IMG/VR virus record: IMGVR_UViG_3300047557_000972
Coordinates: 1-44,501 of that record
DNA: 44,501 bases
Source of the DNA: a virus
Direction: 5' to 3' (one strand)
The first letter of the stretch is position 1, and every line of letters begins with the position of its first letter. The notes beneath the pieces were generated by a model that did no database searches, was not told the DNA's origin, and worked only from the letters and a program-made list of their open reading frames with translations. Shown here piece by piece: positions 16,784 through 35,144 of this stretch. A program made the translations under genes and the position numbers.

Positions 16784-16987
16784 TTACTGTTGAAACTTCT
16801 GAATGCACTCCTTCAGCCAATCGATCTGGTTCTTCATACGATGGGCTTCGTTCAAGTAGTGCGCCGAGAGGTTGGCGTACTCCTATGAGGCTGTCATGTA
16901 AGCGATGTGCCTACGCTCTGCCTCTTGGATCTGACGTGTCGCCACCATGACCCCTGAGGGTTTTTTGAAAAGATCTAAGAACTTCAT
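16784..16987 (-). pseudogene. Small coiled-coil protein gene interrupted by an in-frame TAG
   Basis: ATG at 16987 opens MKFLDLFKKPSGVMVATRQI and runs to a TAG at 16883-16885 (codon 35); the same frame continues with EYANLSAHYLNEAHRMKNQI to TAA at 16784. The joined product would be 67 aa and matches a common small phage protein type: FxxLFK start, charged helix, then EYA...Y...RI..L. The amber falls where that family usually has a polar residue; a single C-to-T change from CAG (Gln) would explain it. TAG is used as a normal stop elsewhere (18940, 21983), so genome-wide recoding is unlikely. Either a nonsense mutation, an assembly error, or a suppressed stop. It is the promoter-proximal gene of the early operon. 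Confidence 0.6.
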
Positions 16988-17016
16988 CGCTGTCTTTCGC
17001 TGTTGATGGAAGACCT

Positions 17017-17070
17017 ATCCTACCATGCGTGTAAGGTAAACTTGCAATACCCTACAAGTTCGTGTAGGAT
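17017..17070. promoter_or_regulatory. Divergent early promoters with two operator dyads
   Basis: A palindromic TTGCAA (17042-17047) can serve as -35 in both directions: rightward with TAGGAT (17065-17070, 17-nt spacer), leftward with TAGGAT read from 17022-17017 (19-nt spacer). Two 18-bp dyads, CCTAC...GTAAGG (17019-17036) and CCTACA...TGTAGG (17051-17068), overlap the two -10 boxes and are 32 bp apart, about three helical turns. Outermost 7 bp of the region are perfectly symmetrical. This is the arrangement expected for a repressor choosing between divergent operons; the Cro/YdaS-like protein starting at 17101 is the obvious candidate. Confidence 0.7.
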
Positions 17071-17100
17071 TGTGTTACTTTGACTTTGAAGGAGAGCCCA

Positions 17101-17337
17101 ATGGGCCTGAAGGAATACTTTGACGGTCAACCCTACGGGGCGAAGGCTACGATGGCCAGGAGGCTCGGCATCACGAAGACCTGGATGAGCTTGCTCATCA
17201 GCGGTCGTCAAAAGTGCGGGCCTGAACTGGCGGTGGAGATCGAGAAGGCCACGGGGGGAGCGGTGACGCGAGAGTCGTTGCGCCCTGATCTGTTTGGCAA
17301 GGGGACGAAAGATGAAGTGGTACAAGCATCAGATTGA
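17101..17337 (+). CDS. Cro/YdaS-like helix-turn-helix regulator
   Basis: 78 aa from ATG 17101, chosen because AAGGAGAG lies 8 nt upstream; an in-frame ATG at 17080 would place the promoter-proximal leader in the protein. The sequence MARRLGITKTWMSLLISGRQ is a helix-turn-helix, followed by AVEIEKATGGAVTRESLRPD, the signature ending of YdaS/Cro-type phage repressors. It should bind the two dyads at 17017-17070 and control the divergent early operons. It overlaps the next gene by 26 nt. No CI-like partner or integrase was seen, so temperate life is not shown. Confidence 0.8.
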   Translation: MGLKEYFDGQPYGAKATMARRLGITKTWMSLLISGRQKCGPELAVEIEKATGGAVTRESLRPDLFGKGTKDEVVQASD

Positions 17338-19933: not shown

Positions 19934-20139
19934 TGGATATTGAAGAGCACAAACATAGATGTCTCGTTCGTTCAATCATATTGAGGAGATTGAAGGATCG
20001 AGACAAGGCCCATCAGGATCTGTATGGGGACGGCAAGAGATGGCCGGGGTACAAAGAGAAGAACCCGCAGGTATTGAATGATGTCTTGACCCAATGGAAA
20101 CGAGGCAACCGAGGCAACCCAGGAGAGTGGCATGAGTGA
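19933..20139 (+). CDS. Small basic protein, unknown
   Basis: 68 aa, starting in a TGATG overlap with the helicase stop. It begins MDIEEHKHRCLVRSIILRRL and is rich in Arg/Lys; EHxHxCxVR...LR....R pattern with Lys/Arg tail is a common small phage protein placed after replicative helicases. It overlaps the next start by 8 nt. Function unknown; basic charge suggests nucleic-acid contact. Confidence 0.7.
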   Translation: MDIEEHKHRCLVRSIILRRLKDRDKAHQDLYGDGKRWPGYKEKNPQVLNDVLTQWKRGNRGNPGEWHE

Positions 20140-20410
20140 GATGAGTGACTTCCAACGTAAGTTCTTCGCGCACGGACTGGGGCAGAAGCTCTACACCGAG
20201 CAGGAGTTCGCAGAGGCCATTGCAGCCGCGAAGGCGGAGATCATGGCGGTGGCGATCCAGACCAGCAGGCAAGTCGTGTTCATTGAGCGTGACGCCTGTG
20301 CGGAACTTGTGGATAACCTTGCCACGCAGGAGGACGAGGGTGAAGTCTGCACGGCCCTACGGAATGCGGCAGAGGCGATCCGCAACCGCATCCCCAGTCA
20401 GCGGCAGTGA
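20132..20410 (+). CDS. Small helical protein, unknown
   Basis: 92 aa; ATG 20132 follows AGGAG. Two ATGs (MSEMSDF) are close together. Mostly helical, with FAEAIAAAKAEIMAVAIQTS and IERDACAELVDNLATQ; the latter recalls the EREACA...L segments of the minus-strand early genes. No catalytic motif. It ends in the GTGA start of the resolvase gene. Confidence 0.7.
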   Translation: MSEMSDFQRKFFAHGLGQKLYTEQEFAEAIAAAKAEIMAVAIQTSRQVVFIERDACAELVDNLATQEDEGEVCTALRNAAEAIRNRIPSQRQ

Positions 20411-20865
20411 GACTCTTCGTCGGCATCGACCCAGGTGCCATCAGTGGTGCCTGGGGGATCGTGGACCACCACGGCGACTACTGGTCGAGTGGCTTCATCC
20501 CGCATGAGGACGGCAGGATCAAGGCCGCGCTCTTCAAGGCTGAACTGTCCCAGGCCATCGACCAGCAGGATGTGACGTTCGTGATCGAGGACGTTCATGC
20601 GATGCCGAAGCAAGGTGTAAGTAGCACGTTCAAGTTTGGCGTGGCAGTAGGTGCGATCCAGGCGGTGGTGGAGTTGTCCCGAGCCCCCTGGATGATCGTT
20701 CGGCCGCAGTCATGGAAGCGAGATATGCAGGTGACTGCGGACAAGGGCACGAGTTTGGAGTTGGCGAGGCGGCTGTGGCCGAGCGCCCCGCTTGCAAGGC
20801 AGAAGGACCACGGTGTGGCTGAAAGCCTGTTGTTGGCCGAGTGGTTAAGACGAAAGGAGATGTGA
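20407..20865 (+). CDS. RuvC-like Holliday junction resolvase
   Basis: 152 aa from GTG 20407 (overlapping TGA). RNase-H-fold acidic residues are readable: D8 in VGIDPGAISGAWG, E61 in FVIEDVHAMP, and D134/E139 in KDHGVAESLLLAEWL, with a STFKFGVAVG segment typical of phage RuvC-like proteins. It likely resolves branched intermediates before packaging. It lies in the replication operon between small genes, with its stop coupled to the next start (GTGATG). No dimerisation partner is needed in this family. Confidence 0.85.
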   Translation: MRLFVGIDPGAISGAWGIVDHHGDYWSSGFIPHEDGRIKAALFKAELSQAIDQQDVTFVIEDVHAMPKQGVSSTFKFGVAVGAIQAVVELSRAPWMIVRPQSWKRDMQVTADKGTSLELARRLWPSAPLARQKDHGVAESLLLAEWLRRKEM

Positions 20866-21197
20866 TGCAGTTGGAGTTTGACCTGTCCGCCAGCAAGGCG
20901 GCTCGTGATCGTGGTGCTGGTTTGGCAGAGGACCATGCTGGTGCAACCTGGAACGAGCGTGCGGTTGAGATCGCGCTGTCGTTCCTGAAGGCATCGGGTC
21001 CGGAGGGTGCGCTCTTCGAGGATGTTCGGTCCTACGCCTCGTTGCTGGGCCTGCCGGAGCCGCCTCATCCGAATGCCTGGGGGGCGGTGGCGCTGTCGAT
21101 GTCCAGGCGCAAGCTGATCGTGAAGACCGGGGTGTGGATCAACAGCAGCAGCGTGGCGGCTCATGCTCGTGCTGCTCCGATGTGGAGGCTGGCATGA
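20865..21197 (+). CDS. Winged-helix-like small phage protein, unknown
   Basis: 110 aa from ATG 20865, which has AAGGAG upstream; a start at 20841 would lie inside the resolvase gene. The sequence AARDRGAGLAEDHAGATWNE, then FEDVRSYASLLGLPEPPHPN and AWGAVALSMSRRKLIVKTG, is a well-known phage pattern (ARDxGmxxAxxHA...W...A......FT.EDVR...G.P.PP..raWG). It looks like a winged helix. The role is not established as far as I know. Confidence 0.75.
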   Translation: MQLEFDLSASKAARDRGAGLAEDHAGATWNERAVEIALSFLKASGPEGALFEDVRSYASLLGLPEPPHPNAWGAVALSMSRRKLIVKTGVWINSSSVAAHARAAPMWRLA

Positions 21198-21493
21198 GCG
21201 ACCCGAGACTGGTGGATGTGGTTGCGATGATGGCCATGCACGCCTTGATCGACAAAGATCAGTTCAGGAGTGCCCAGCGGCTGGCGATAGATTCATACGA
21301 CATCGCTCATCAGATGATCAAAGAGTCAAAGCGGAGAGAAGACGATGGACAACCCCTGCCAAATCGACCCCGAAAGAAGTCTGGAGTACATCTGGCGGCA
21401 CTCGAAAGCCTTTGCCAAGGCCAAGGCAGAGCGGATCTACTTGGAGGAGTACCGAAAGAGCCTCAAGGCGATCTTGATGAAGAAAGCCCTTGA
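21194..21493 (+). CDS. Small protein with unusual 149-nt overlap into the next gene
   Basis: 99 aa from ATG 21194, with GGAGG upstream and an ATGA overlap with the previous stop. The first half (RLVDVVAMMAMHALIDKDQF, then SAQRLAIDSYDIAHQMIKES) looks like a helical phage protein; the second half after DDGQPLPNRPRKKSG runs over the 21345 gene in another frame and looks unconstrained. A frameshift that lengthened the protein is possible, or the overlap is genuine. Confidence 0.6.
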   Translation: MSDPRLVDVVAMMAMHALIDKDQFRSAQRLAIDSYDIAHQMIKESKRREDDGQPLPNRPRKKSGVHLAALESLCQGQGRADLLGGVPKEPQGDLDEESP

Positions 21494-21692
21494 GGCAGGC
21501 TACGAGGCCGCGAACGCGCAGGAGCGCGAGGCGTATGCAGACCCCGAGTACAAAACCCTCCTGGAGGGCCTTAGAACCGCCGTAGAGGCCGAGGAAGCCA
21601 TCCGGTGGGGGTTGGTAGCAGCAGAGGCGGCAATCGAGATCTGGAGGTCTAAGGAGGCCTCCGCACGCCAGGAGATCAAGGCAGCACTATGA
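21345..21692 (+). CDS. Conserved coiled-coil phage protein
   Basis: 115 aa. LEYIWRHSKAFAKAKAERIY, then EEYRKSLKAILMKKALE, NAQEREAYADPEYKTLLEGL and AEEAIRWGLVAAEAAIEIWR form a long helical protein that is widely conserved in phage replication/recombination regions and typically lies next to a small nuclease gene, as here. Its role is unassigned to my knowledge. GGAGAGAAG precedes ATG 21345. The stop overlaps the next start (ATGA). Confidence 0.8.
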   Translation: MDNPCQIDPERSLEYIWRHSKAFAKAKAERIYLEEYRKSLKAILMKKALEAGYEAANAQEREAYADPEYKTLLEGLRTAVEAEEAIRWGLVAAEAAIEIWRSKEASARQEIKAAL

Positions 21693-21985
21693 CGACACTC
21701 GCAGAGAAGAAGCACATGGCCCGCGTGGCGGAGCTTGGATGTGCTGTATGCAGGCGTATGGGCCACGAGGGAACGCCGGCAGAACTGCATCACCCGAGGA
21801 AGGGTGCAGGCATGGGCAAGCGCAGTGGGCACTTCAGCGTGATCCCCCTCTGCCCGGAGCACCATCGAGGCAACACGGGCGTACATGGCCTGGGCACGAA
21901 GGGCTTCCCGAAGCACTGGGGCTTCACCGAGGAAGATCTGCTGAAGGATGTGCTCGAACTACTTAAAGACCCTGTGGAGCAGTAG
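21689..21985 (+). CDS. Ref/HNH-type nuclease
   Basis: 98 aa. CAVCRRMG, then AELHHPRKGAGMGKRSGHF, VIPLCPEHHRGNTGVHGLG: a zinc/HNH nuclease pattern matching the Ref (RecA-dependent nuclease)/DUF968-like small phage enzymes. The paired C..C and C..HH positions would bind zinc, with HH of ELHHPR catalytic. It probably cuts recombination intermediates. The gene ends in a true TAG stop at 21983-21985, 4 nt before the first of the repeated promoters. Confidence 0.8.
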   Translation: MTTLAEKKHMARVAELGCAVCRRMGHEGTPAELHHPRKGAGMGKRSGHFSVIPLCPEHHRGNTGVHGLGTKGFPKHWGFTEEDLLKDVLELLKDPVEQ

Positions 21986-21989
21986 ACAT

Positions 21990-22051
21990 TTGACACTAGC
22001 GTGGAAGTTCGTCTTATACTGCACGCACTGCACGTCGCAGGCAACAAGGAG
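21990..22051 (+). promoter_or_regulatory. Promoter P1 with repeated leader hairpin
   Basis: TTGACA (21990-21995), 19-nt spacer, TATACT (22015-22020). The leader has CACTGC (22026-22031), 5-nt loop and GCAGG (22037-22041), then CAACAAGGAG with ribosome site at 22046-22051, 7 nt before the ATG at 22059. This leader is the first of five near-identical copies (P1-P5). Confidence 0.75.
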
Positions 22052-22058
22052 CAGAGAG

Positions 22059-22340
22059 ATGATCACCACCACCCGCATCGATGAACTCGGCACCCTCCTG
22101 GCGGAAATCGCCAAGCTGACGGAGAAGGCTGAGACGATCAAGAAGGACATCAAGGAAGAGGCCAGCCTCTCCGGTCAGAAGTCCTTCCCTGGCGACCTGT
22201 TCAGCGCCAGCTACATCGAGTCCAACCGCAGCACGGTGGACTGGAAGGCCCTGGCCAAGGAACTGGCGATCCCCGCCGACCTGATCGCCAAGCACACTGC
22301 TACCACGGCCGTGTACTCGGTCAAGGTCACCAGCCGCTAA
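22059..22340 (+). CDS. Small coiled-coil protein of known phage type, unknown role
   Basis: 93 aa from ATG 22059, 7 nt after AAGGAG of the P1 leader. MITTTRIDELGTLLAEIAKL opens a helix that continues KAETIKKDIKE; then FPGDLFSASYIESNRSTVDW, KALAKELAIPADLIAKHT. The DELG.L.A.IA.L......LK.......... G..F....... S...VDWK plan is widespread in phages, and may be a small host-interaction or recombination accessory protein. Followed by a GC hairpin before the next gene. Confidence 0.75.
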   Translation: MITTTRIDELGTLLAEIAKLTEKAETIKKDIKEEASLSGQKSFPGDLFSASYIESNRSTVDWKALAKELAIPADLIAKHTATTAVYSVKVTSR

Positions 22341-22348
22341 ACCCATAA

Positions 22349-22364
22349 GCCCCCTACGGGGGGC
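22349..22364 (+). promoter_or_regulatory. GC hairpin before the 22376 gene
   Basis: GCCCCC (22349-22354), 4-nt loop TACG, GGGGGC (22359-22364). No T-run follows, so it is not a standard terminator. The ribosome site CAGGAG begins directly after the stem, so it could pause ribosomes, protect the upstream mRNA end or tune downstream translation. Confidence 0.5.
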
Positions 22365-22375
22365 AGGAGATTCTT

Positions 22376-22567
22376 ATGTCCTCTCATCTGACTGGCCGTC
22401 ACATCATCGAAGTGCTCGAAGTTCTCAAGTTTGCAGAGAACTTTCCTATCGATCCTTCGCCCGAGCAGATCGGTATGCTGCGGGGAAAGGCGGCAAGCGC
22501 AGCCATCACCCTGCGCGTCTTCAGCGGCATCGAGTTGATGAAGGTGGAAGTGAGGGCGGAGGAATGA
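22376..22567 (+). CDS. Small helical protein, unknown
   Basis: 63 aa, with CAGGAG ten bases upstream. MSSHLTGRHIIEVLEVLKFA and EQIGMLRGKAASAAITLRVF suggest a two- or three-helix bundle. It ends in an ATGA overlap with a 36-aa Pro-rich gene. No recognised domain. Confidence 0.65.
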   Translation: MSSHLTGRHIIEVLEVLKFAENFPIDPSPEQIGMLRGKAASAAITLRVFSGIELMKVEVRAEE

Positions 22568-22674
22568 ACTGGCCTTTCCCAAAGGAGCCGCTGGACTACC
22601 CGGTGGCTCCTCCCATCCCAGGGTGGGTGCGGCCCAGGAAGCCCAAGCTGCCCACAGAGCCTGCACCCTTTTAA
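22564..22674 (+). CDS. 36-aa Pro/Trp-rich micro-protein
   Basis: ATG 22564 in an ATGA overlap, GGAGGA upstream, TAA at 22672. The product MNWPFPKEPLDYPVAPPIPG, then WVRPRKPKLPTEPAPF, is one-third proline and cannot fold as a helix. Short proline-rich products of this kind could bind partner proteins. Coding is supported mainly by the coupled start and ribosome site. Confidence 0.5.
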   Translation: MNWPFPKEPLDYPVAPPIPGWVRPRKPKLPTEPAPF

Positions 22675-22694
22675 CCCTACATCACACTTGGGCT

Positions 22695-22752
22695 TTGACA
22701 GTGCAAGCATTTCGCTTACACTGTCTTCACTGCATTGTGCAGGTAACAAGGA
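22695..22752 (+). promoter_or_regulatory. Promoter P2 with repeated leader hairpin
   Basis: TTGACA (22695-22700), 16-nt spacer, TACACT (22717-22722). The promoter holds an inverted repeat, GACAGTGCAAGC (22697-22708) with GCTTACACTGTC (22714-22725), eleven of twelve positions paired. The leader has CACTGC (22728-22733), loop and GCAGG (22739-22743), then TAACAAGGA before the ATG at 22759. Confidence 0.7.
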
Positions 22753-22758
22753 AGCAAG

Positions 22759-22935
22759 ATGTATACAGTCATCACAGAATCCAAGGGCTGGGCCACCAGC
22801 CTGCCGTTCGTGGTCACGCGCACGTTCGATGATCGTGACGAAGCGCTTGATTGGATCGCGGACGAGCTTTGCGGCGAAGACGTACTCCGCGTGCGTTGCC
22901 CGGAGATCGACTTCGAGGATGTCCCCAGCATTTAA
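22759..22935 (+). CDS. 58-aa acidic protein, unknown
   Basis: ATG 22759 follows AAGGA of the P2 leader by 6 nt; TAA at 22933. The translation begins MYTVITESKGWATSLPFVVT and contains RTFDDRDEALDWIADELCGE; the compact strand-helix order suggests a small alpha/beta fold. Isolated between two copies of the promoter cassette, so it is transcribed as its own unit. Function unknown. Confidence 0.7.
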   Translation: MYTVITESKGWATSLPFVVTRTFDDRDEALDWIADELCGEDVLRVRCPEIDFEDVPSI

Positions 22936-22942
22936 TGGGTTA

Positions 22943-23004
22943 TTGACAGTGTAGTTCAACTCTGGGTTACACTGTCTTCACTGCGCGTTGCAGGTAACAA
23001 GGAG
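22943..23004 (+). promoter_or_regulatory. Promoter P3 with repeated leader hairpin
   Basis: TTGACA (22943-22948), 19-nt spacer, TACACT (22968-22973). GACAGTGTA (22945-22953) and TACACTGTC (22968-22976) form a perfect 9-bp inverted repeat that covers both promoter boxes. Leader: CACTGC (22979-22984), GCAGG (22990-22994), TAACAAGGAG ending 23004; ATG at 23011. Confidence 0.75.
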
Positions 23005-23010
23005 ATCACG

Positions 23011-23823
23011 ATGCACCCCTTCCAAAAGTCTGGCCTCGGTCTGGCCCCCTTCCGTTGCGTTGGCGTTCAGGAGAACGTCTATGTCTCCGGTGGCTACGCA
23101 CAAGCCGGTGGCTCGTGCGACTACTGCGGCACGGGCATTCGCTGGGAGTTCCTGATCCGCAGCGCCGACAACCGGACCTTTAAGGTCGGCTGCGACTGCG
23201 TCGAGAAGACCTACAGGGAGTACGGCGTCGAGGTCGAGGGCTTCAAGGCCGTCCGCCTGGAGCACGCCCGCCAGCGCCGTCAGGCCGGTGCTCAGGCCCG
23301 CCGTGAGGCCCGCCAGAAGGCCTGGGAAGAGCAGCGTGCAGTGTGGGCTGCAGAGCGCCAGGAAGCCGGTGCTGCATGGCGTGAAGAGCACGCCGAACTG
23401 ATCGCCCGTATCGAGCAGCGCAAAAGCTCCAACGAGTTCCTGTTCGCGATGGCTGATGCCATCAAGCAATATGGCAAGCTCACGGAGCGCCAGCAGGTTA
23501 GCGTGGAGCGTTCGCTGGAGATCCTGGAGCGCCAGGAGCAGCAGCGCAAGACCAGCCGCCATGTAGGCACCCCTGGCCAGCGTATCAAGGGCGCGAAGCT
23601 CCGCGTAACCCGCTGCATCGTGATCGGCCGGGAGCCTTTCTATCCCTACGCCCCCCGGTATCTCGTGGCTCTGGAGGACGAGGCTGGCAACGCCCTGACT
23701 TGGTTCACGGGTAACGGTCTGAATCCTTGCAATGAGTTCGAGCCGGCCGCGTTCACTGTGAAGGACCACTCGGTGTACAACGGCATCCAGCAGACCGTGG
23801 TGCAGCGCGTGGCGTTTAAGTAA
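23011..23823 (+). CDS. Zinc-binding phage protein with long coiled coil
   Basis: 270 aa. The N-terminal domain has SCDYCGTGIRWEFLIRSADN and FKVGCDCVEKTYREYG (CxxC and CxC), a probable zinc site. Residues of about 80-180 are an Arg/Glu/Ala-rich coiled coil. The C-terminal domain (IKGAKLRVTRCIVIGREPFY, then FTGNGLNPCNEFEPAAFTVK and YNGIQQTVVQRV) looks like a small beta domain that occurs in other phage proteins with the same N-terminus. Function unknown; nucleic-acid binding is plausible. It has its own promoter (P3). Confidence 0.75.
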   Translation: MHPFQKSGLGLAPFRCVGVQENVYVSGGYAQAGGSCDYCGTGIRWEFLIRSADNRTFKVGCDCVEKTYREYGVEVEGFKAVRLEHARQRRQAGAQARREARQKAWEEQRAVWAAERQEAGAAWREEHAELIARIEQRKSSNEFLFAMADAIKQYGKLTERQQVSVERSLEILERQEQQRKTSRHVGTPGQRIKGAKLRVTRCIVIGREPFYPYAPRYLVALEDEAGNALTWFTGNGLNPCNEFEPAAFTVKDHSVYNGIQQTVVQRVAFK

Positions 23824-23833
23824 CCGCACGAAC

Positions 23834-23905
23834 AAGTCAGGATTTGGCCCACAAGTCGAATCCTGACTTATACTGCGAGCACTGCATCAGCAGGCAACCA
23901 AGGAG
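23834..23905 (+). promoter_or_regulatory. Promoter P4 with flanking inverted repeat and leader hairpin
   Basis: TTGGCC (23844-23849), 19-nt spacer, TATACT (23869-23874). AAGTCAGGATT (23834-23844) and AATCCTGACTT (23859-23869) form a perfect 11-bp inverted repeat around the promoter core. The leader has CACTGC (23880-23885), GCAGG (23890-23894), then CAACCAAGGAG ending at 23905; ATG at 23913. Confidence 0.7.
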
Positions 23906-23912
23906 ATCTGAG

Positions 23913-24185
23913 ATGAAGCGCGATTACTTGTTCGACTTTCTGTATGACTTGGACGAGGAGACGAGCGTCACGGTGTACGTGACTGACGTTGACTTTGGTA
24001 GTCCGGGTCAGACCTGGGGGCCTCCGGAGCGGTGCTACCCGCCCGAGCCTGCGGAGATCTGCTGGCACGCCGCGAACGAGGACGGCAAGGAGCCGGCTCT
24101 CACGAACAGCCAGATCGAGGCGATCGAAGAGCTTGCCTGGGAAAAGGCGCAGGATCTGCAGGAAGAGCCCGACTACGACGATTGA
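23913..24185 (+). CDS. Small acidic protein, unknown
   Basis: 90 aa from ATG 23913, placed 7 nt after the P4 leader ribosome site; the open frame starts earlier but covers the promoter. The sequence DYLFDFLYDLDEETSVTVYV, then YPPEPAEICWHAANEDGKEP and IEELAWEKAQDLQEEPDYDD, is strongly acidic, ending in a run of Asp/Glu. Such DNA-mimic-like charge is common among phage host-takeover proteins, but nothing specific supports that here. Confidence 0.7.
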   Translation: MKRDYLFDFLYDLDEETSVTVYVTDVDFGSPGQTWGPPERCYPPEPAEICWHAANEDGKEPALTNSQIEAIEELAWEKAQDLQEEPDYDD

Positions 24186-24194
24186 CCACACGCA

Positions 24195-24266
24195 TAAGTC
24201 GGGATTTGACACTGCGTTGAATCCCGGCTTACAATGCAGGCACTGCACAACGCAGGTAACAAGGAG
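24195..24266 (+). promoter_or_regulatory. Promoter P5 with flanking inverted repeat and leader hairpin
   Basis: TTGACA (24206-24211), 18-nt spacer, TACAAT (24230-24235). TAAGTCGGGATT (24195-24206) pairs with AATCCCGGCTTA (24220-24231), 12 positions with one G-T. Relative to P4 the A-T pair in the arms is replaced by G-C on both sides. Leader: CACTGC (24241-24246), GCAGG (24252-24256), TAACAAGGAG ending 24266; ATG at 24273. Confidence 0.75.
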
Positions 24267-24272
24267 TCAAAC

Positions 24273-24518
24273 ATGATCAAGCTGCCCGCCAATCCAGACC
24301 GTCTGTGGCAACTCGCCCAGGTCAAGGAGTTCGTCAAGCAAGTGCAAGGCAAGGTAGGCTGTGGCTGGGACTATCTGTCCGAGCCGATGCGTTCGGCCAT
24401 GATTGCCGAGAAGGCTCTCTTCATCGTCACCGGCCTGGAGCGTGGTGACATCCCCTGTGCTGCCATCGGCTGCCTGCGCCGCGATATGCTGATCGTCGCC
24501 GGCCTGCTCGACGCCTAA
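24273..24518 (+). CDS. Small helical protein, unknown
   Basis: 81 aa, 6 nt after the P5 leader ribosome site. It reads NPDRLWQLAQVKEFVKQVQG, CGWDYLSEPMRSAMIAEKAL, and GLERGDIPCAAIGCLRRDML: three or four helices with three cysteines. No domain recognised. It is followed 16 nt later by the 24535 gene, probably in the same transcript. Confidence 0.7.
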   Translation: MIKLPANPDRLWQLAQVKEFVKQVQGKVGCGWDYLSEPMRSAMIAEKALFIVTGLERGDIPCAAIGCLRRDMLIVAGLLDA

Positions 24519-24534
24519 GCCGAGGAGAAGCATC

Positions 24535-24858
24535 ATGCAAGTCGAAGCCCGCATCGCCATCGAGCGCAAGGTCGTCAGGCACCTGATCCGCACGGCCAAG
24601 AAGCATGGCTACTCTGTGGTTAAGGTTTGGGACGGTGGAGAGTACGTCCCCACGCCCACTGAGCGCGAGGCCCTGGACGCAGTCTTTAGCGTGGACGAGA
24701 GCCTCATCCGGTTCAAGCACCCCGAAGAGCCCAAGGCCCACTGCGCAGTCATCGTGCTGGGCAACAGTGGCTGGGACGCCATCGCGGACGCCAGCATGGG
24801 AGAACGCTGGGACAAGGTCATGGACGAGGCCCAGGACTACGCAGATAGGTTCTGCTGA
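24535..24858 (+). CDS. Small alpha/beta protein, unknown
   Basis: 107 aa with GAGGAG upstream of ATG 24535. RKVVRHLIRTAKKHGYSVVK, VWDGGEYVPTPTEREALDAV, SLIRFKHPEE, CAVIVLGNSGWDAIADASMG. The strand-helix order and GNSGWDxIxDxS segment recur in phage proteins encoded ahead of terminase, of unknown role. Last gene of the P5 transcript before the terminase small subunit. Confidence 0.7.
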   Translation: MQVEARIAIERKVVRHLIRTAKKHGYSVVKVWDGGEYVPTPTEREALDAVFSVDESLIRFKHPEEPKAHCAVIVLGNSGWDAIADASMGERWDKVMDEAQDYADRFC

Positions 24859-24863
24859 GATAA

Positions 24864-24886
24864 ACTCCGGCCCAACAACCCGGAGT
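24864..24886 (+). promoter_or_regulatory. Hairpin covering the terminase small subunit ribosome site
   Basis: ACTCCGG (24864-24870) and CCGGAGT (24880-24886) form a perfect 7-bp stem with a 9-nt loop. The 3' arm contains GGAG (24882-24885), the only ribosome site for the ATG at 24892, so translation of the small terminase should need the stem to open. Confidence 0.6.
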
Positions 24887-24891
24887 CAACC

Positions 24892-25479
24892 ATGCCCCGC
24901 AAAGCCACCAAAACGCCCCAGGAGCCACCAAAGCCCAAAGACAAGGGTAAGGTGGCTTCAACGCTTCCAGCGGCCCCTAAAGGGCGTATGGGCAGGCCCT
25001 CCATCTACTCCCAGCAGATAGCAGCAGAGATCTGCACCCGCATCGCTCAAGGGGAAAGCCTGAGATCCATCTGCAGGGACGACGCCATGCCGTCAATGGC
25101 AAGTGTGTTCTTGTGGCTCGCGCAGAAGCCAGATTTCTCTGAGCAATACGCTCGCGCACGGGAGGAGCAGGCTGAGGTTCACGCTGATGCAATCGTGGCC
25201 ATTGCTGATGAGACGCCTGATGTGGAAGAGGTGCGTGACCGAGAGGGGAACGTGCTGGATCTGAAGATGCACAGCGCGTATGTGCAGTGGCAGAAGAACC
25301 GCATCGACGCCAGGAAGTGGGTGGCAGCCAAGCTCAAGCCCAAGAAGTATGGCGACCGCGTAGCCCTTGCAGGAGACCCTGAGAGCCCGATCAAGGTCGA
25401 GGCTGAAGTGCAGGCCGACAAGCTCTTCCAGGCCCTCCTAACGAACGCAGAGTTGAAGAAGCAGGTAGATGCATCGTAA
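24892..25479 (+). CDS. terS: Terminase small subunit, Sf6-like
   Basis: 195 aa. After a Lys/Pro-rich N-terminus, GRPSIYSQQIAAEICTRIAQ, GESLRSICRDDAMPSMASVF, LWLAQKPDFSEQYARAREEQ give the helix-turn-helix DNA-recognition domain of Sf6-type small terminases, followed by the oligomerisation part (DAIVAIADETPD) and the family's NRIDARKWVAAKLKPKKYGD motif. It recognises the phage pac/cos DNA and stimulates TerL. Unusually, it is separated from TerL by seven small genes. Its ribosome site lies in a hairpin. Confidence 0.9.
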   Translation: MPRKATKTPQEPPKPKDKGKVASTLPAAPKGRMGRPSIYSQQIAAEICTRIAQGESLRSICRDDAMPSMASVFLWLAQKPDFSEQYARAREEQAEVHADAIVAIADETPDVEEVRDREGNVLDLKMHSAYVQWQKNRIDARKWVAAKLKPKKYGDRVALAGDPESPIKVEAEVQADKLFQALLTNAELKKQVDAS

Positions 25480-25663
25480 CTTAGTTACGGTCAGTGAAGA
25501 TGAGAGTGCCGAAAAACACGGGGTTCTAGGTAACTCTGGTTACGGCTGCAAGACTTGCCGGTGGTCGAGCCAGACTCCTGCGCTGGTGCTGTGGTGTGGG
25601 TTCTTCGAGCGTCCCTGCTACCTGCCGTGCCCTCAGTACACCTACGAGCCGGGGACTCTTTAA
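25469..25663 (+). CDS. Cys-rich mini-protein
   Basis: 64 aa, overlapping the end of the terminase small subunit by 11 nt. GYGCKTCRWS, LVLWCGFFERPCYLPCPQY and YEPGTL: a CxxC followed by three more Cys, probably a small zinc-binding fold. Short phage proteins ending in YEPGT with the same Cys spacing are common. No obvious ribosome site, so expression may depend on coupling to the terminase gene. Confidence 0.6.
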   Translation: MHRNLVTVSEDESAEKHGVLGNSGYGCKTCRWSSQTPALVLWCGFFERPCYLPCPQYTYEPGTL

Positions 25664-25683
25664 CCCTCCGTGTAAGTAGGATA

Positions 25684-25743
25684 TTGACACAAGCGTCCAA
25701 GATGCGCTTATACTGTGCTCCATCGACACACCAACTGGAGCAC
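25684..25743 (+). promoter_or_regulatory. Promoter P6 and ribosome-site hairpin
   Basis: TTGACA (25684-25689), 19-nt spacer, TATACT (25709-25714). The core is very like P1 (both have AGCGT in the spacer and CTTATACTG at the end). The leader differs from P1-P5: GTGCTCCA (25715-25722) pairs perfectly with TGGAGCAC (25736-25743), and the 3' arm holds the GGAG ribosome site for ATG 25747. Confidence 0.75.
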
Positions 25744-25746
25744 GAC

Positions 25747-25938
25747 ATGGACAACTACGACGCCAACAACGCCGAGCACCGCATGGTGCTGGCACTCGAC
25801 TTCGTCGCCCGCGCCGGAGCGACAGAACCCGCCCTCGACCGAGCGGCGCATCAGTACCAAGTTGACCGCGAAGCGCTGACCGCGCAGTACGACCAGCAAT
25901 ACCTGCGCTGGGCGGCGGATCGCGGGCTGGACAACTGA
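25747..25938 (+). CDS. Small acidic helical protein, unknown
   Basis: 63 aa from ATG 25747 just after the P6 hairpin; the open frame upstream covers the promoter. It reads NAEHRMVLALDFVARAGATE, then AAHQYQVDREALTAQYDQQY. Helical, two halves of about 25 residues, no cysteine. Has its own promoter and a buried ribosome site. Function unknown. Confidence 0.7.
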   Translation: MDNYDANNAEHRMVLALDFVARAGATEPALDRAAHQYQVDREALTAQYDQQYLRWAADRGLDN

Positions 25939-25945
25939 CAAACCC

Positions 25946-25979
25946 CGCTGGTGCCAGCGGCCTGCCCCAGCGGCAGGCC
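25946..25979 (+). promoter_or_regulatory. Tandem GC hairpins between small genes
   Basis: CGCTGG/CCAGCG (25946-25959, very tight loop) is followed by GGCCTGCC (25959-25966), loop CCAGC, GGCAGGCC (25972-25979), a perfect 8-bp stem. No T-run follows. They may stabilise the upstream message or weaken read-through to the 26008 gene. Confidence 0.5.
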
Positions 25980-26007
25980 AGTGTCACCCACAACCACAGG
26001 AGCCACC

Positions 26008-26295
26008 ATGACCGCAGATCAAGTCCGAGCCCTCGTCGCCGCCAAGTACCCCGGCGTGCTGCAGTCCCCTCTGGCCCAGGCCATGCACGGCGCGAGCAGC
26101 ATGGCCATGCTGGAAGCCAGCGATGCCGATGTGGTGGCGTTGCGCGGCGAGGCGCTGGAGCACGCCCGCGCCTGCCTCCGCGCCTGTGGCGGCTGGACGG
26201 TCGAGACGCTCGGCCACAACATTGAGAGCGCGTTCGGCGGCGACCTCGATGCCGACGAGTGCGACGAGATCGCCCGCAGGGCGCTGGGACTCTGA
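26008..26295 (+). CDS. Small helical protein, unknown
   Basis: 95 aa from ATG 26008 with CAGGAG upstream; the in-frame ATG at 25951 lies in the hairpin region and has no ribosome site. TADQVRALVAAKYPGVLQSP, then EALEHARACLRACGGWTVET and LDADECDEIARRALGL. Acidic, helical, Cys in the middle. G+C is higher than in the neighbours. No known function. Confidence 0.7.
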   Translation: MTADQVRALVAAKYPGVLQSPLAQAMHGASSMAMLEASDADVVALRGEALEHARACLRACGGWTVETLGHNIESAFGGDLDADECDEIARRALGL

Positions 26296-26298
26296 GCA

Positions 26299-26478
26299 GT
26301 GAGCCGCATCGTTACACACTGCGTGAACCCGCCCGTGCCGACGCGGCAGTGGGATTGGGTGGCATACATCGAAGGCGATGAGGAGGCGAACGGCCCAACC
26401 GGGCGCGGACCGACAGAAGCAGAAGCTCTGCGCGACCTGTGCGAGCAGCTTGCCGACCTCTCCAATCACAGGGCTTAA
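26299..26478 (+). CDS. 59-aa phage mini-protein (PPxPxRxxDW type)
   Basis: GTG 26299, 3 nt after the previous stop; TAA at 26476. MSRIVTHCVNPPVPTRQWDW, VAYIEGDEEANGPTGRGPTE, AEALRDLCEQLADLSNHRA. This is a recognisable small phage protein type: NPPIPxRxxDWxA, then GxxGxGxTxxEAxxxLxEQ. The GTG start has only a weak ribosome site, so it is likely coupled to the 26008 gene. Function unassigned. Confidence 0.7.
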   Translation: MSRIVTHCVNPPVPTRQWDWVAYIEGDEEANGPTGRGPTEAEALRDLCEQLADLSNHRA

Positions 26479-26502
26479 TCAGCCTCACCACAGGAGAACG
26501 AC

Positions 26503-26673
26503 ATGGACCAGTACGAAGAGCACCTCGCCCACAGCGCCCCCTGCTCCAGCCAGTGGGACGGCTTCGACCGGGGCGACACCTGCTACTGTTATGAGGATGG
26601 CACGCCCTACGGGGCTGCGATCCAAGCCTCCGGCCCCGATCTAGAAGACGACTGGGCTGACATCCCCTTCTAA
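26503..26673 (+). CDS. 56-aa acidic protein ending in an SSB-like tip
   Basis: ATG 26503 with CAGGAG upstream; TAA at 26671. MDQYEEHLAHSAPCSSQWDG, FDRGDTCYCYEDGTPYGAAI, QASGPDLEDDWADIPF. The acidic last nine residues EDDWADIPF resemble the DDLDDIPF tip of this phage's own SSB-like protein and the DDIPF tip of bacterial SSB. It could compete for, or recruit, SSB-interacting host proteins. That is inference from the tip alone. Confidence 0.65.
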   Translation: MDQYEEHLAHSAPCSSQWDGFDRGDTCYCYEDGTPYGAAIQASGPDLEDDWADIPF

Positions 26674-26675
26674 CT

Positions 26676-26939
26676 ATGTACACCCTACGAGTCACCCCCA
26701 CCATCCTCAACGAGTGGCAGGTACGCTGCATCGAGGACGTTATCCCTGGCTTGGGCTCCATTGGCAAGCCTGGGAACATCGCGGTCTCCCAGGAGACCCT
26801 GAAGGAGATCAAGGCCGACTGCGAGTTCATGCTCGACGCCAACGGCCCGGACCTCTACCCCAGTGAACGGGCGGCGTACCGGGCGATGCTCAAGCAGTGC
26901 AAGCTTGCTCTCTCTGTCGGCCCGGTGGAGACAGTATGA
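26676..26939 (+). CDS. Small protein, unknown
   Basis: 87 aa. Starts 2 nt after the previous stop, no clear ribosome site, so coupled translation is likely. YTLRVTPTILNEWQVRCIED, AVSQETLKEIKADCEFMLDA, SERAAYRAMLKQCKLALSV. A short beta segment followed by helices; LxxYxxLLKQ-like ending is common in small phage proteins. It overlaps the next gene by ATGA. Confidence 0.65.
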   Translation: MYTLRVTPTILNEWQVRCIEDVIPGLGSIGKPGNIAVSQETLKEIKADCEFMLDANGPDLYPSERAAYRAMLKQCKLALSVGPVETV

Positions 26940-27145
26940 GCGGCGGCAGCGTGACACTACCCGCTGACGTTGCCCGCTGCGAAGGGCGTGAGGCTGATCA
27001 CCCATACTACAGGGAGTGTGAGCACTGCCTGAGGCGGACCAGTCCCCCGCACGAGCGGTCTGACTGGCTCGCGCTTCCGGTCTGGATCATTGGCTGGGGC
27101 GGGCACGGGGAATGTCCTGACAAGATAGATGAGCGACCTGATTGA
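26936..27145 (+). CDS. Zinc-binding mini-protein overlapping terL
   Basis: 69 aa from ATG 26936 (ATGA overlap); the frame opens further upstream only as a shadow. VARCEGREADHPYYRECEHC, then LRRTSPPHERSDWLALPVWI and HGECPDKIDERPD: two Cys pairs (C12, C27/C30, C60) consistent with a small zinc fold of a type common in phage mini-proteins (ARCxG......C..C.RR.SP). It overlaps the terminase large subunit start by 17 nt. Confidence 0.65.
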   Translation: MSGGSVTLPADVARCEGREADHPYYRECEHCLRRTSPPHERSDWLALPVWIIGWGGHGECPDKIDERPD

Positions 27146-29369
27146 AGCGCTGAAGGACCCGAAGGTCCAGGCGCAACTGAAGGCTCTGCCGCCAGAGAAG
27201 CGGCTGGCTTACCTTTGGCGTGCCAAGTGGGTGGAGACGGCCCACAAGCACCAGATCGTTCCGAAGGGGGACTGGTCCATCTGGCTGATGCTGGCAGGCC
27301 GGGGGGCGGGCAAGACCCGTACTGCTGCTGAGCAGATCGGCTGGTGGGCCTGGACGGAGCCTGAGACCCGCTGGCTGGTTGCGGCCCCGACCAGTGCGGA
27401 TGTGAGGGGTACGTGCTTCGAGGGCGACTCGGGGCTGCTGAACGTCATCCCGAAGGCTCTGGTGGCGGACTACAACAAGGCGTACCACGAGCTACGGCTG
27501 ATCAACGGGAGCCTGATCAAGGGCATCCCTGCGAGCGAGCCTGAGCGGTTCCGTGGGCCTCAGTTCCACGGGGCTTGGTGCTGCATCCCAGGCACGATGA
27601 TCGCCACACCAAGCGGAGACCGGCCCATTGAGATGTTGACGGCTGGCGATACCGTGCTGACCCGACACGGCCCCAGGCGAGTATTGGCAGCAGGGCCATC
27701 TGGAAACCCTGCCGACCTAGTGCGTCTGGATTGTGGTGATACGAGCTTGACTGTCACGGAGGATCATCCGATACTGGTTGGAGACCAGTGGGTGGCTGCT
27801 GGTGACATCAAGGAAGGGGCCTATGTATGGGCTACAAATACATCGGCAGTAGATATGCCCACCGCGTCATTTACGAGCGGCATTACGGGTCGATACCAGC
27901 AGGCTGGGTGGTTCATCACCGGGATGGCGATCCTGGCAACAATGACCCGGCAAACCTTGAAGCGATGCCTCGGTCTGAGCACAACAGAATGCACCAGACT
28001 GGCAAGCCGACCACGGAAGCTCAGAAAGCTGCTGCTGCGGCGACTCTGGCCAAACTACGAACTCCGAAGGATGGTCGCTGCCTGCAATGCAGCGCCGAGT
28101 TTGTCTCCTTGGCCGCTGGGAGGGTGGGTGCCTTCTGTTCGCGGCCTTGTTTGGAGCGGTGGCGGCGCAACGTATTCAAGCCGGAGCAGCGCACCTGTGA
28201 TGTCTGCAAGGGCCTGTATATGGCCAAGAAGCGGTTCCAGCGATATTGCAGCAAGGTCTGCAACAACCGATCACAAGTACGGACCTATCGCAGTCAGCCC
28301 ACTGGAGGTACGCCGCGTCGAACGCTTGCCCAACGCGAAGACATACAACCTAACGGTTGAGGGCGAGCACGAGTTCATCGCAAACGGCATTGTTGTCCAC
28401 AACTGCGACGAGCTTGCAGCCTGGGAGTACATCCAGGACGCCTGGGATCAGATCCAGTTCGGCGTCCGACTGGGGACGAAGACCCGCACGATCATCACGA
28501 CGACCCCCAGGCCGAAAGACCTGATCCTGGAGTTGATCAACCGTGATGGGGACGATGTGGTGGTAACGACTGCCAGCACGTATGAGAATCTGGCTAACCT
28601 GTCAGATAACTTCAGACGGCAGATATTGCAGTATGAGGGGACGAAACTAGGCCGGCAGGAGATATACGCGGAGATTATTGACCCTGAGGAGGGGGGTATC
28701 GTCAAGCGTGAGTGGTTTAAGTTATGGCCTGCAGGGAAGGCGTTCCCCAAGTTCGAGTACATCATTCAGTCGTATGACTGCGCGACCTCTGAGAAGGTTA
28801 TGAACGATCCTACGGCCAGTGGTACGTGGGGGGTATTCAAACCTCAGGATGGGCCGATGTCTGTGATGCTGATTGACTGCTGGCAGGAGCGGATGCAGTA
28901 CCCGGACCTGAGGCCGAAGGTGATCGAGGAGTACGACACGGTCTTCGGTGAGGGGAAGGACAAGAAGCGGGTGGACCTGATCCTGATCGAGGACAAGAGC
29001 GCGGGGATCAGTCTTATACAAGACCTGCAGAGAGCACATCTGCCGGTGAGGGCGTACAACCCTGGCAAGGCGGACAAGGTGCAGAGGCTGAACATTGTCT
29101 CGAACATCATCGCCCGGGGCAGGGTGTGGATACCTGAGTCGGATCGTAGGAAGGGATATGTGAAGGACTGGGCGGAGGGATGCGTGTCCCAGATCTGCAG
29201 CTTTCCTGAGACGACTCACGACGACTTCGTGGATATGACCACACAGGCGCTGAGGTTTCTCAGGGACTCTGGGTGGTTGGAGATTGATCCCCCGCCTGAG
29301 GATGACTGGGATGAGGATGACTTCGTGGACAGCGGGAAGGTCAGGAGGGAGAACCCCTATGCTCAATAA
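27129..29369 (+). CDS. terL: Terminase large subunit precursor containing an intein
   Basis: 746-aa precursor. Extein N-part: Walker A AGRGAGKT (56-63), adenine-motif-like LVAAPTSADVRGTC, coupling region FRGPQFHGAW. The Walker B motif GAWCDELAAW is split: residues 151-425 are an intein, and C426 is the +1 residue. C-part: motif III IITTTPRP, nuclease acids in QSYDCATSEK (about 548), LILIEDKSAG (about 620) and TTHDDFVDMTTQ (about 697). After splicing the protein would be 471 aa, a normal TerL length. It hydrolyses ATP to pump DNA into the prohead and cuts concatemers. Activity should need intein removal because the catalytic DE pair is interrupted. Confidence 0.93.
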   Translation: MSDLIEALKDPKVQAQLKALPPEKRLAYLWRAKWVETAHKHQIVPKGDWSIWLMLAGRGAGKTRTAAEQIGWWAWTEPETRWLVAAPTSADVRGTCFEGDSGLLNVIPKALVADYNKAYHELRLINGSLIKGIPASEPERFRGPQFHGAWCCIPGTMIATPSGDRPIEMLTAGDTVLTRHGPRRVLAAGPSGNPADLVRLDCGDTSLTVTEDHPILVGDQWVAAGDIKEGAYVWATNTSAVDMPTASFTSGITGRYQQAGWFITGMAILATMTRQTLKRCLGLSTTECTRLASRPRKLRKLLLRRLWPNYELRRMVAACNAAPSLSPWPLGGWVPSVRGLVWSGGGATYSSRSSAPVMSARACIWPRSGSSDIAARSATTDHKYGPIAVSPLEVRRVERLPNAKTYNLTVEGEHEFIANGIVVHNCDELAAWEYIQDAWDQIQFGVRLGTKTRTIITTTPRPKDLILELINRDGDDVVVTTASTYENLANLSDNFRRQILQYEGTKLGRQEIYAEIIDPEEGGIVKREWFKLWPAGKAFPKFEYIIQSYDCATSEKVMNDPTASGTWGVFKPQDGPMSVMLIDCWQERMQYPDLRPKVIEEYDTVFGEGKDKKRVDLILIEDKSAGISLIQDLQRAHLPVRAYNPGKADKVQRLNIVSNIIARGRVWIPESDRRKGYVKDWAEGCVSQICSFPETTHDDFVDMTTQALRFLRDSGWLEIDPPPEDDWDEDDFVDSGKVRRENPYAQ
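27579..28403 (+). mobile_element. Intein in the Walker B motif of TerL
   Basis: 275 codons. Block A CCIPGTMIATPSGDRPIEML starts with the catalytic Cys; block B is LTVTEDHPILVGDQWVAAGD with the T..H pair; blocks F and G are AKTYNLTVEGEHEFIANGIV followed by VHN and a Cys in the extein. Taking the first of the two Cys as residue 1 restores GAWCDELAAW exactly. The region between blocks B and F (about residues 233-400 of the precursor) reads as unstructured nonsense in this frame because it overlaps an HNH gene in another frame. All splicing residues look intact. Confidence 0.93.
27827..28360 (+). CDS. HNH homing endonuclease nested out of frame in the intein
   Basis: 177 aa in the -1 frame relative to TerL. 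ATG 27827; this frame has a stop at 27803 just before, and AAGGAAGGGG (27810-27819) could act as ribosome site. HRVIYERHYGSIPAGWVVHH, RDGDPGNNDPANLEAMPRSE, HNRMH form an HNH-3 nuclease core. Then come two zinc-finger-like units, CLQCSAEF...FCSRPC and RTCDVCKGLYMAKKRFQRYC...VC. These finger/HNH combinations are typical of phage homing endonucleases, which cut intein-free target genes and spread the element. Its last 20 or so codons overlap the intein C-terminal splicing blocks. Confidence 0.85.
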   Translation: MGYKYIGSRYAHRVIYERHYGSIPAGWVVHHRDGDPGNNDPANLEAMPRSEHNRMHQTGKPTTEAQKAAAAATLAKLRTPKDGRCLQCSAEFVSLAAGRVGAFCSRPCLERWRRNVFKPEQRTCDVCKGLYMAKKRFQRYCSKVCNNRSQVRTYRSQPTGGTPRRTLAQREDIQPNG

Positions 29370-35114: not shown

Positions 35115-35144
35115 AGTGTAACACAGGGTTGAACGACATGGCAA
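35115..35144 (-). promoter_or_regulatory. Minus-strand promoter of the antisense gene
   Basis: On the minus strand: TTGCCA (35144-35139), 18-nt spacer, TACACT (35120-35115). The -10 hexamer is identical to those of P2 and P3, so it should be read by host RNA polymerase. The -35 box overlaps the start codon of the portal gene, so the two genes may interfere. Confidence 0.65.

Follow-up and report, generated by a model that had tools for sequence, protein, structure and literature searches.

Introduction

In the T4-type phages RB49 and phi1, promoter-early stem-loop (PeSL) cassettes reportedly combine a sigma70-like early promoter with a terminator stem-loop. They are said to be repeated through a hyperplastic region of small non-essential genes, which are shuffled by recombination between cassettes. 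We describe a cassette that invites comparison with them, present in five copies (P1 to P5) at positions 21,990 to 24,266 of a 44,501-nt stretch of viral DNA (IMG/VR record IMGVR_UViG_3300047557_000972; the whole stretch is called the window below). Each copy joins a promoter to a leader that begins with a hairpin. As in PeSL, a promoter and a stem-loop recur together in a variable region of small genes. Unlike the PeSL terminator, however, the main stem-loop here lies downstream of the promoter, at predicted position +2, and has no U tract, and a predicted Cro operator is built into the promoter. Nor are these phages T4-type, as judged from their genome sizes and their capsid identities to MW202545 and Caulobacter phage RW. 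We think it rather probable that the cassette is an early expression unit for accessory genes that is repressed by Cro, protected by a 5' hairpin and exchangeable.

Repeated regulatory elements of other kinds are known from mycobacteriophages. The stoperators of phage L5 are asymmetric 13-bp sites, many of them dispersed through each genome, that block elongation. The phages described here also have many dispersed (predicted) repressor sites in one genome, but these are 19-bp dyads that overlap promoters. In Cluster K mycobacteriophages, the SAS element is a fixed 13-bp sequence (GGGATAGGAGCCC) at start codons and ESAS is a 17-bp repeat with no assigned role (PMC3203893). Both precede many non-structural genes of different families; half have an inverted repeat with a variable spacer, and the repeat sequence differs by subcluster (PMC3203893). 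The likeness lies in a repeated, start-associated element before varied genes, whereas here a 4–6 bp hairpin is locked to the −10 box, its arms covary, and an operator is present. The SAS sequence is absent from the five window leaders, which read CACTGC..GCAGGYAACNAAGGA.

Stem-loops at the 5' ends of ompA, papA, Bacillus subtilis aprE and DrrS are reported to hinder RppH and RNase E (PMC3997798, PMC5360333), and in them, as predicted here, the stem is at or next to the first transcribed base. Those are single genes, while here the hairpin is a standard part of nearly every accessory gene of a lineage, and its protective role is our reading of it. The Cro/YdaS proteins of lambdoid and Rac-type prophages (PF15943; PMC9986795) are small helix-turn-helix (HTH) proteins encoded beside replication genes, with operators between divergent promoters. 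We see the same layout, but matching dyads also occur at dispersed cassettes far from the immunity-like region, and the predicted regulon is therefore a distributed one. PeSL-like cassettes, 5'-terminal hairpins and Cro operators are each known separately. We did not find their combination as a standard part in one phage lineage described in the open-access literature searched.

Five Copies in the Window

The pattern CACTGC-N4–6-GCAGG has exactly five matches in the 44.5 kb, all on the plus strand, at 22026, 22728, 22979, 23880 and 24241 (span 22026–24256). Shuffled windows had a mean of 0.17 matches and never reached five. Every leader begins 5 nt 3' of a −10 box of the form TTA[CT]A[CA]T and is followed by an AAGGA Shine-Dalgarno sequence and then ATG. 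The loops of P1 to P5 are ACGTC, ATTGT, GCGTT, ATCA and ACAAC. The initial annotation, which was made from the letters of the window alone, had thus given the five sequences exactly and was right that all five loops differ. Its statement that each cassette serves one small gene was looser. The genes downstream encode proteins of 93, 58, 270, 90 and 81 aa with no assigned function, so that P3 would drive a gene of some size, and a second open reading frame may follow P1 and P5.

Hairpin Pairing Is Kept while the Sequence Varies

A search that required the hairpin would mask variation in it, and cassettes were therefore sampled by promoter alone, using a position weight matrix (PWM) of the 25 bases upstream of the leader. 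This matrix regained the CACTGC sites together with about 45 others in the same contigs whose hairpin begins at that base but differs in sequence. When IMG/VR was scanned independently with a promoter-only pattern, 80 distinct matches came up; about 67 have a hairpin in this position, and the others resemble chance matches in coding sequence. Of 101 promoter-defined cassettes, drawn from 38 islands, 82% have a stem starting at offset +2 (4 bp or longer, three or more G-C pairs), compared with 10% at the next-best offset and 1.8% in shuffled leaders. Most leaders without a +2 stem have a bulged CTG(A)CC..GGCAG form or a shift of one base.

The stems found at this fixed position include CTGC/GCAG, CTGAC/GTCAG, CTGTC/GACAG, CGGTC/GACCG, CAGTC/GACTG, CCAAC/GTTGG, ACAAC/GTTGT and ACGAC/GTCGT, along with the G-U wobble variants CGGTC/GATCG and CTGTC/GACGG. 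Distinct self-complementary arms at one position mean that pairing has been conserved through compensatory change. We quantified this without circularity by seeking the complement of each 5' arm both in the leader it came from and in those with different arms. The complement was present in 82.8% of own leaders versus 18.3% of the others. By arm, the figures were 67/67 for CTGC, 13/20 for CTGA (9/96 in other leaders) and 4/4 for ACAA (3/112), with the qualification that for several arms there are just one or a few sequences and that the phages are related, so these counts are not independent events. Within the P1 gene family alone, CTGAC, CTGC, CGGTC, CCAAC and CTGTC stems occur in different phages.

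These results support selection for structure, one of the two readings that the initial annotation had proposed; it is the hairpin structure, and not the stem sequence, that is conserved. The pattern that would have spoken against selection for structure, loops conserved per gene family, was not seen: loops differ within both the P1 and the P3 families. The accompanying picture of a constant stem around a variable loop has to be redrawn. The stem is constant inside this window, but in relatives it changes with compensation, and MW202545 has further stems. Loops range from 3 to about 16 nt across relatives but are not free; in 66 non-redundant CTGC/GCAG sites, the window's five included, nearly all begin with A and are 5–6 nt long, AATAA and AATCAA being the commonest.

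Two explanations that give the RNA structure no part fare poorly against this variation. One is that a single promoter and leader was recently duplicated and the hairpin has no function. The carriers do all come from a single phage lineage (lineage homologs at 76 of 82 loci, short flanks at the rest), but orthologous genes could not have come to carry different stems at one position without compensatory change, and loops and lower stems vary with pairing kept; we give this explanation next to no weight. The other, scarcely more credible, is that a dimeric protein binds the inverted repeat as a DNA operator. Short inverted repeats beside promoters are often operators, and the arms are identical in the window's five copies. 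A sequence-specific dimer, however, needs fixed arms and spacing, whereas here the arms change with pairing kept, loop length is anywhere between 3 and about 16 nt, and some pairs are G-U wobbles. Position-locked covariation is evidence from natural evolution that pairing beside the predicted first transcribed base is selected.

Hairpin Position and Folding

The canonical distance of 7 nt, counted from the final base of the −10 hexamer, places the predicted +1 on the A of CACTGC, with the stem starting at +2. When positions +1 to +60 were folded with RNAfold, +2 or +3 was paired in 95 of 101 leaders. Relative to shuffled sequences, the leaders had a mean folding z-score of −2.0, versus +0.46 for the coding stretch downstream. 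5'-terminal hairpins obstruct RppH and can stabilize mRNA (PMC3997798), and in the mycobacterial small RNA DrrS, adding two or more unpaired nucleotides before the 5' stem was destabilizing (PMC5360333). For these two reasons we favor the reading that the hairpin at the predicted +2 would protect the 5' end of the mRNA. The approximately 100 natural promoter-hairpin pairs form a library for testing such 5'-end protection. The leader hairpin is unlikely to be a terminator, having no U tract after it.

A different role for an RNA hairpin would be as the recognition site of a phage or host RNA-binding protein, or as a put-like antitermination element acting on RNA polymerase. The motif does open the predicted transcript, an apical GC-AATNNN-GC is common to the long hairpins, most loops begin with A, and a downstream GGTAACA is also conserved. 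Yet stems and loops differ widely (CGGTC, CCAAC, CTGC, ACGAC and others) and several types lack the apical motif, which fits shape over sequence; and since the cassettes precede single short genes, antitermination would have little to do. We regard this role as unlikely. The initial annotation had left room for a bound protein. Nothing we found points to sequence-specific binding to the hairpin, and the best candidate is instead a Cro/YdaS repressor bound to the DNA, at a predicted operator that overlaps the promoter and also precedes cro.

A Predicted Cro Operator in the Promoter

The −10 box, TTANA[CA]T, is strongly conserved, whereas −35 hexamers in relatives are weak, absent or variably spaced. 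The initial annotation gave each gene its own promoter. The −10 box stands, and because −35 spacing is not fixed in relatives, assignment to sigma70 rests mainly on that box; in the window, TTGACA-like hexamers are spaced at 19, 16, 19, 19 (TTGGCC) and 18 nt. Also conserved is GT..AA at −25 to −20, which together with TTACAC makes a 19-bp dyad, GTGTAA-N7-TTACAC, covering −26 to −8 and overlapping the −10 box.

A gene for a small Cro-like HTH regulator of the YdaS family lies on the plus strand at 17101–17337 (78 aa). It matches PF15943 above the curated threshold (E = 1e-13) and also PHROG 35 (transcriptional repressor). The YdaS family is considered the counterpart of lambda Cro (PMC9986795), and YdaS-type Cro homologs are found across the lineage. 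Upstream of the gene, between divergent promoters, is a predicted operator, GTGTAAGGTAAACTTGCAA (17029–17047, plus strand), which scores 13.5 bits with the window excluded from the PWM and is among the four best sites in the 44.5 kb. That matrix was symmetrized from cassette dyads, with the test phage left out each time, and was scanned over up to 150 nt upstream of cro. All 29 phages tested, this window among them, had a dyad there, scoring 14 bits in the median and never below 9; of 2367 control windows taken from the same contigs, 0.6% reach 9 bits. The top scorers in the window are P3, 35116, P1, the cro site at 17029, P5 and P4. By inspection, half-sites look co-varying between cassettes and cro, with TTAGA in MW202545 and one further contig (L188) and TGAAA/TTTCA in the L171 group.

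From these matches, the phage's own repressor can probably shut off the cassette promoters, and the cassettes look like a Cro regulon. The matching operators thus give a predicted regulon together with its predicted regulator in an uncultured phage lineage. That the dyad is purely a by-product of the −10 box was considered and rejected, being opposed by the left half (T..AA) and by recurrence upstream of cro.

The dyad could also bind an activator or an unknown sigma-like factor, and with −35 elements this weak and variably spaced the promoter may need help. We rate this as a minor possibility. A dyad at −26 to −8 over the −10 box is in a repressor position, and the same dyad stands upstream of cro in all 29 phages. 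No sigma factor family scored above the cut-off in the search for a phage-encoded promoter reader; a search for a T7-type polymerase gave no match, but its positive control gave no signal either.

Two further sites in the window concern the predicted repressor. A dyad at 35116–35134, at the start of the portal gene, scores 17.0 bits, second-best of the whole window, and may be another Cro site, controlling late genes. In the divergent promoter region (16960–17100), the minus strand carries TTGCAAGTTTACCTTACACGCATGG and then a AACAGCGAAAGACAGCGATG leader resembling the cassettes of relatives, which suggests a leftward early promoter under the same operator.

Proposed Mode of Action

Taken together, each cassette would be a complete expression unit for a single accessory early gene. 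Its parts would be an UP-like A/T tract, a −10 box (TTACACT) lying partly within the Cro/YdaS dyad operator, the +2 hairpin, an open leader and a strong Shine-Dalgarno sequence. Upon infection, host RNA polymerase would transcribe all cassettes. The 5'-terminal hairpin would leave about one unpaired nucleotide, making the 5' triphosphate hard for RppH to remove, and the short mRNAs would resist 5'-end-dependent decay by RNase E. As Cro accumulates, it would repress the cassettes and its own promoter together, turning the early accessory genes off. Because the unit carries all of its signals, genes would be exchangeable between cassettes, presumably through recombination. We put forward more tentatively, at somewhat under an even chance, the wider idea that the 5'-terminal hairpin is a standard part with an interchangeable sequence, within a portable cassette of operator, promoter, hairpin and ribosome site that yields co-repressed, decay-resistant mRNA and supplies homology for gene swapping.

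Several observations weigh against the proposal. The −35 boxes are absent or of variable spacing, so that another polymerase, or an activator, may be what reads the promoter. A 4-bp stem is worth about −5 kcal/mol, weaker than classic stabilizing hairpins, and when the 60-nt leader and start of P1 and P5 are folded, the minimum free energy structure is a different one. The dyad at P2 is weak or absent, its spacing being N9 and not N7. A test of dyad correlation within cassettes was weak (p about 0.03–0.09), and the Cro dyad shares bases with the −10 box, which makes part of its conservation that of the promoter. Finally, the cultured phages checked have no cassette: it was not seen in Caulobacter phage RW, Limnohabitans phage DC33 or phage zth2-2, nor in MW202484.

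Distribution and Possible Gene Exchange

Judged by where its sequence recurs, the cassette is a lineage-wide element of one uncultured, little-known, water-dwelling phage lineage. About 100 IMG/VR contigs of this lineage share the locus, with a cassette copy of its own at nearly every variable gene. The order is syntenic, running from a Ref-like HNH nuclease through a variable set of small genes to the terminase genes. In the window, the left border of this island is the gene for a Ref-like RecA-dependent HNH nuclease (21689–21985, plus strand; PF16786; homologs in 75 loci), and the right border is the terminase small subunit gene (24892–25479, plus strand; PHROG 1482, E = 7.5e-46; homologs in 91 loci). 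The motif search in related phages that the initial annotation had called for thus finds the leader throughout the lineage, with the hairpin kept but the stem sequence varying.

The full leader occurs in eight IMG/VR contigs. The promoter-leader combination occurs in 90 stretches; of these, about nine are chance coding matches and were excluded (L019, L027, L032, L033, L038, L044, L066, L068 and L077). Homologs of window genes are encoded at 76 of the 82 cassette loci, the remaining six having short flanks. In 257 Gb of bacterial and archaeal genomes there were just three leader matches, all coding-like and without the promoter. A megablast of the region against phages returned no match, and an Rfam search of 20000–27000 returned no relevant family. 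The capsid protein is 90.8% identical to that of the metagenomic genome MW202545, which carries cassette variants, and 77% identical to that of Caulobacter phage RW; genomes are about 45–60 kb.

The island between the HNH and small terminase genes is 2.5–8.3 kb long. Break points between similar islands fall within −60 to +50 of a leader in 25% of cases compared with 8% for random points, an imperfect control given that cassettes are conserved and lie at gene borders, so that gene-boundary mosaicism alone could give part of the excess. The clearest case of exchange is a cassette of about 105 nt that is nearly identical in two contigs (L072 and L171) with different genes on both sides. These patterns suggest modular gene exchange between cassettes. 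The earlier idea of a unit for adding genes draws support from this pair and from the variable island between two conserved genes, less from the break points, whose excess mosaicism may partly explain. The cassettes would also clearly mark where such phages gain and lose accessory genes.

Inverted repeats span many of the promoters, P2 to P5 in the window among them. The sense-strand folds of these repeats have a mean z-score of −0.99 (37% below −1.5), and the reverse strand −0.31. Given this slight excess of stability over shuffled sequences in the sense direction, they may serve the preceding gene as terminators or processing hairpins.

Anatomy of the Window Copies

All five copies are on the plus strand. 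At P1, the predicted operator dyad GTGGAAGTTCGTCTTATAC (22001–22019; 13.5 bits with a PWM from other phages only) overlaps the −10 hexamer TATACT at 22015–22020. The leader (22026–22051) contains the hairpin CTGC(ACGTC)GCAG at 22028–22040, GCAAC and the Shine-Dalgarno sequence AAGGAG at 22046–22051, with the ATG at 22059. The P1 gene (22059–22340; PHROG 6244, function unassigned) is the conserved first gene of the island, with homologs in 88 fetched loci. P2 (22717–22743) has its −10 hexamer TACACT at 22717–22722 and the hairpin CTGC(ATTGT)GCAG at 22730–22742, ahead of the gene at 22759–22935.

P3 (22954–22994) has the top-scoring dyad of the whole window, GTTCAACTCTGGGTTACAC (22954–22972; 18.0 bits), a −10 hexamer at 22968–22973 and the hairpin CTGC(GCGTT)GCAG at 22981–22993; its gene is at 23011–23823. 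P4 (23855–23894) comprises a dyad at 23855–23873 (11.3 bits), a −10 hexamer at 23869–23874 and the hairpin CTGC(ATCA)GCAG at 23882–23893, with the gene at 23913–24185. P5 (24216–24256) comprises a dyad at 24216–24234 (12.0 bits), a −10 hexamer at 24230–24235 and the hairpin CTGC(ACAAC)GCAG at 24243–24255, with the gene at 24273–24518. The promoter-spanning inverted repeat is AAGTCAGGATT/AATCCTGACTT at P4 (23834–23869) and TAAGTCGGGATT/AATCCCGGCTTA at P5 (24195–24231); relative to P4, the P5 repeat shows a compensatory A-T to G-C change and a G-T wobble. A separate hairpin, GCCCCCTACGGGGGGC, lies at 22348–22370 between the P1 gene and the next open reading frame, without a U tract.

Additional Observations

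Some relatives have other arrangements at comparable places. In phage zth2-2 (L181), the P1 homolog is preceded, upstream of 5001, by a different promoter and by what to the eye is an 8-bp hairpin (one mismatch) close to the predicted start; this may be the same design arrived at independently. Four contigs (L006, L010, L012 and L056; for example L006 at 8535, minus strand) carry the cassette's promoter type, with a conserved GACATGGCTAGGTTAGCTCCCGAAAAGACG stretch taking the place of the hairpin leader. At the start of the terminase small subunit gene in relatives (for example L171, L072 and L039), a conserved TTACACT promoter lies directly upstream, with a small ATTC/GAAT hairpin. The record of Limnohabitans phage DC33 (PQ492659.1) places it in the Inoviridae, yet its genome is 39 kb long and a terminase is annotated in its paper; the placement looks like a taxonomy error.

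Farther downstream in the window, the terminase large subunit (27129–29369, plus strand) has an intein-like insertion at about residues 151–425, with Hint_2 and Intein_splicing matches, which explains the split matches of this protein. The gene at 29849–34912 (plus strand) encodes a 1687-aa protein adjoining the portal, with DUF7178 and PcfJ-like matches. This protein is only 30–37% identical to its counterparts in relatives whose portal proteins are 59–79% identical.

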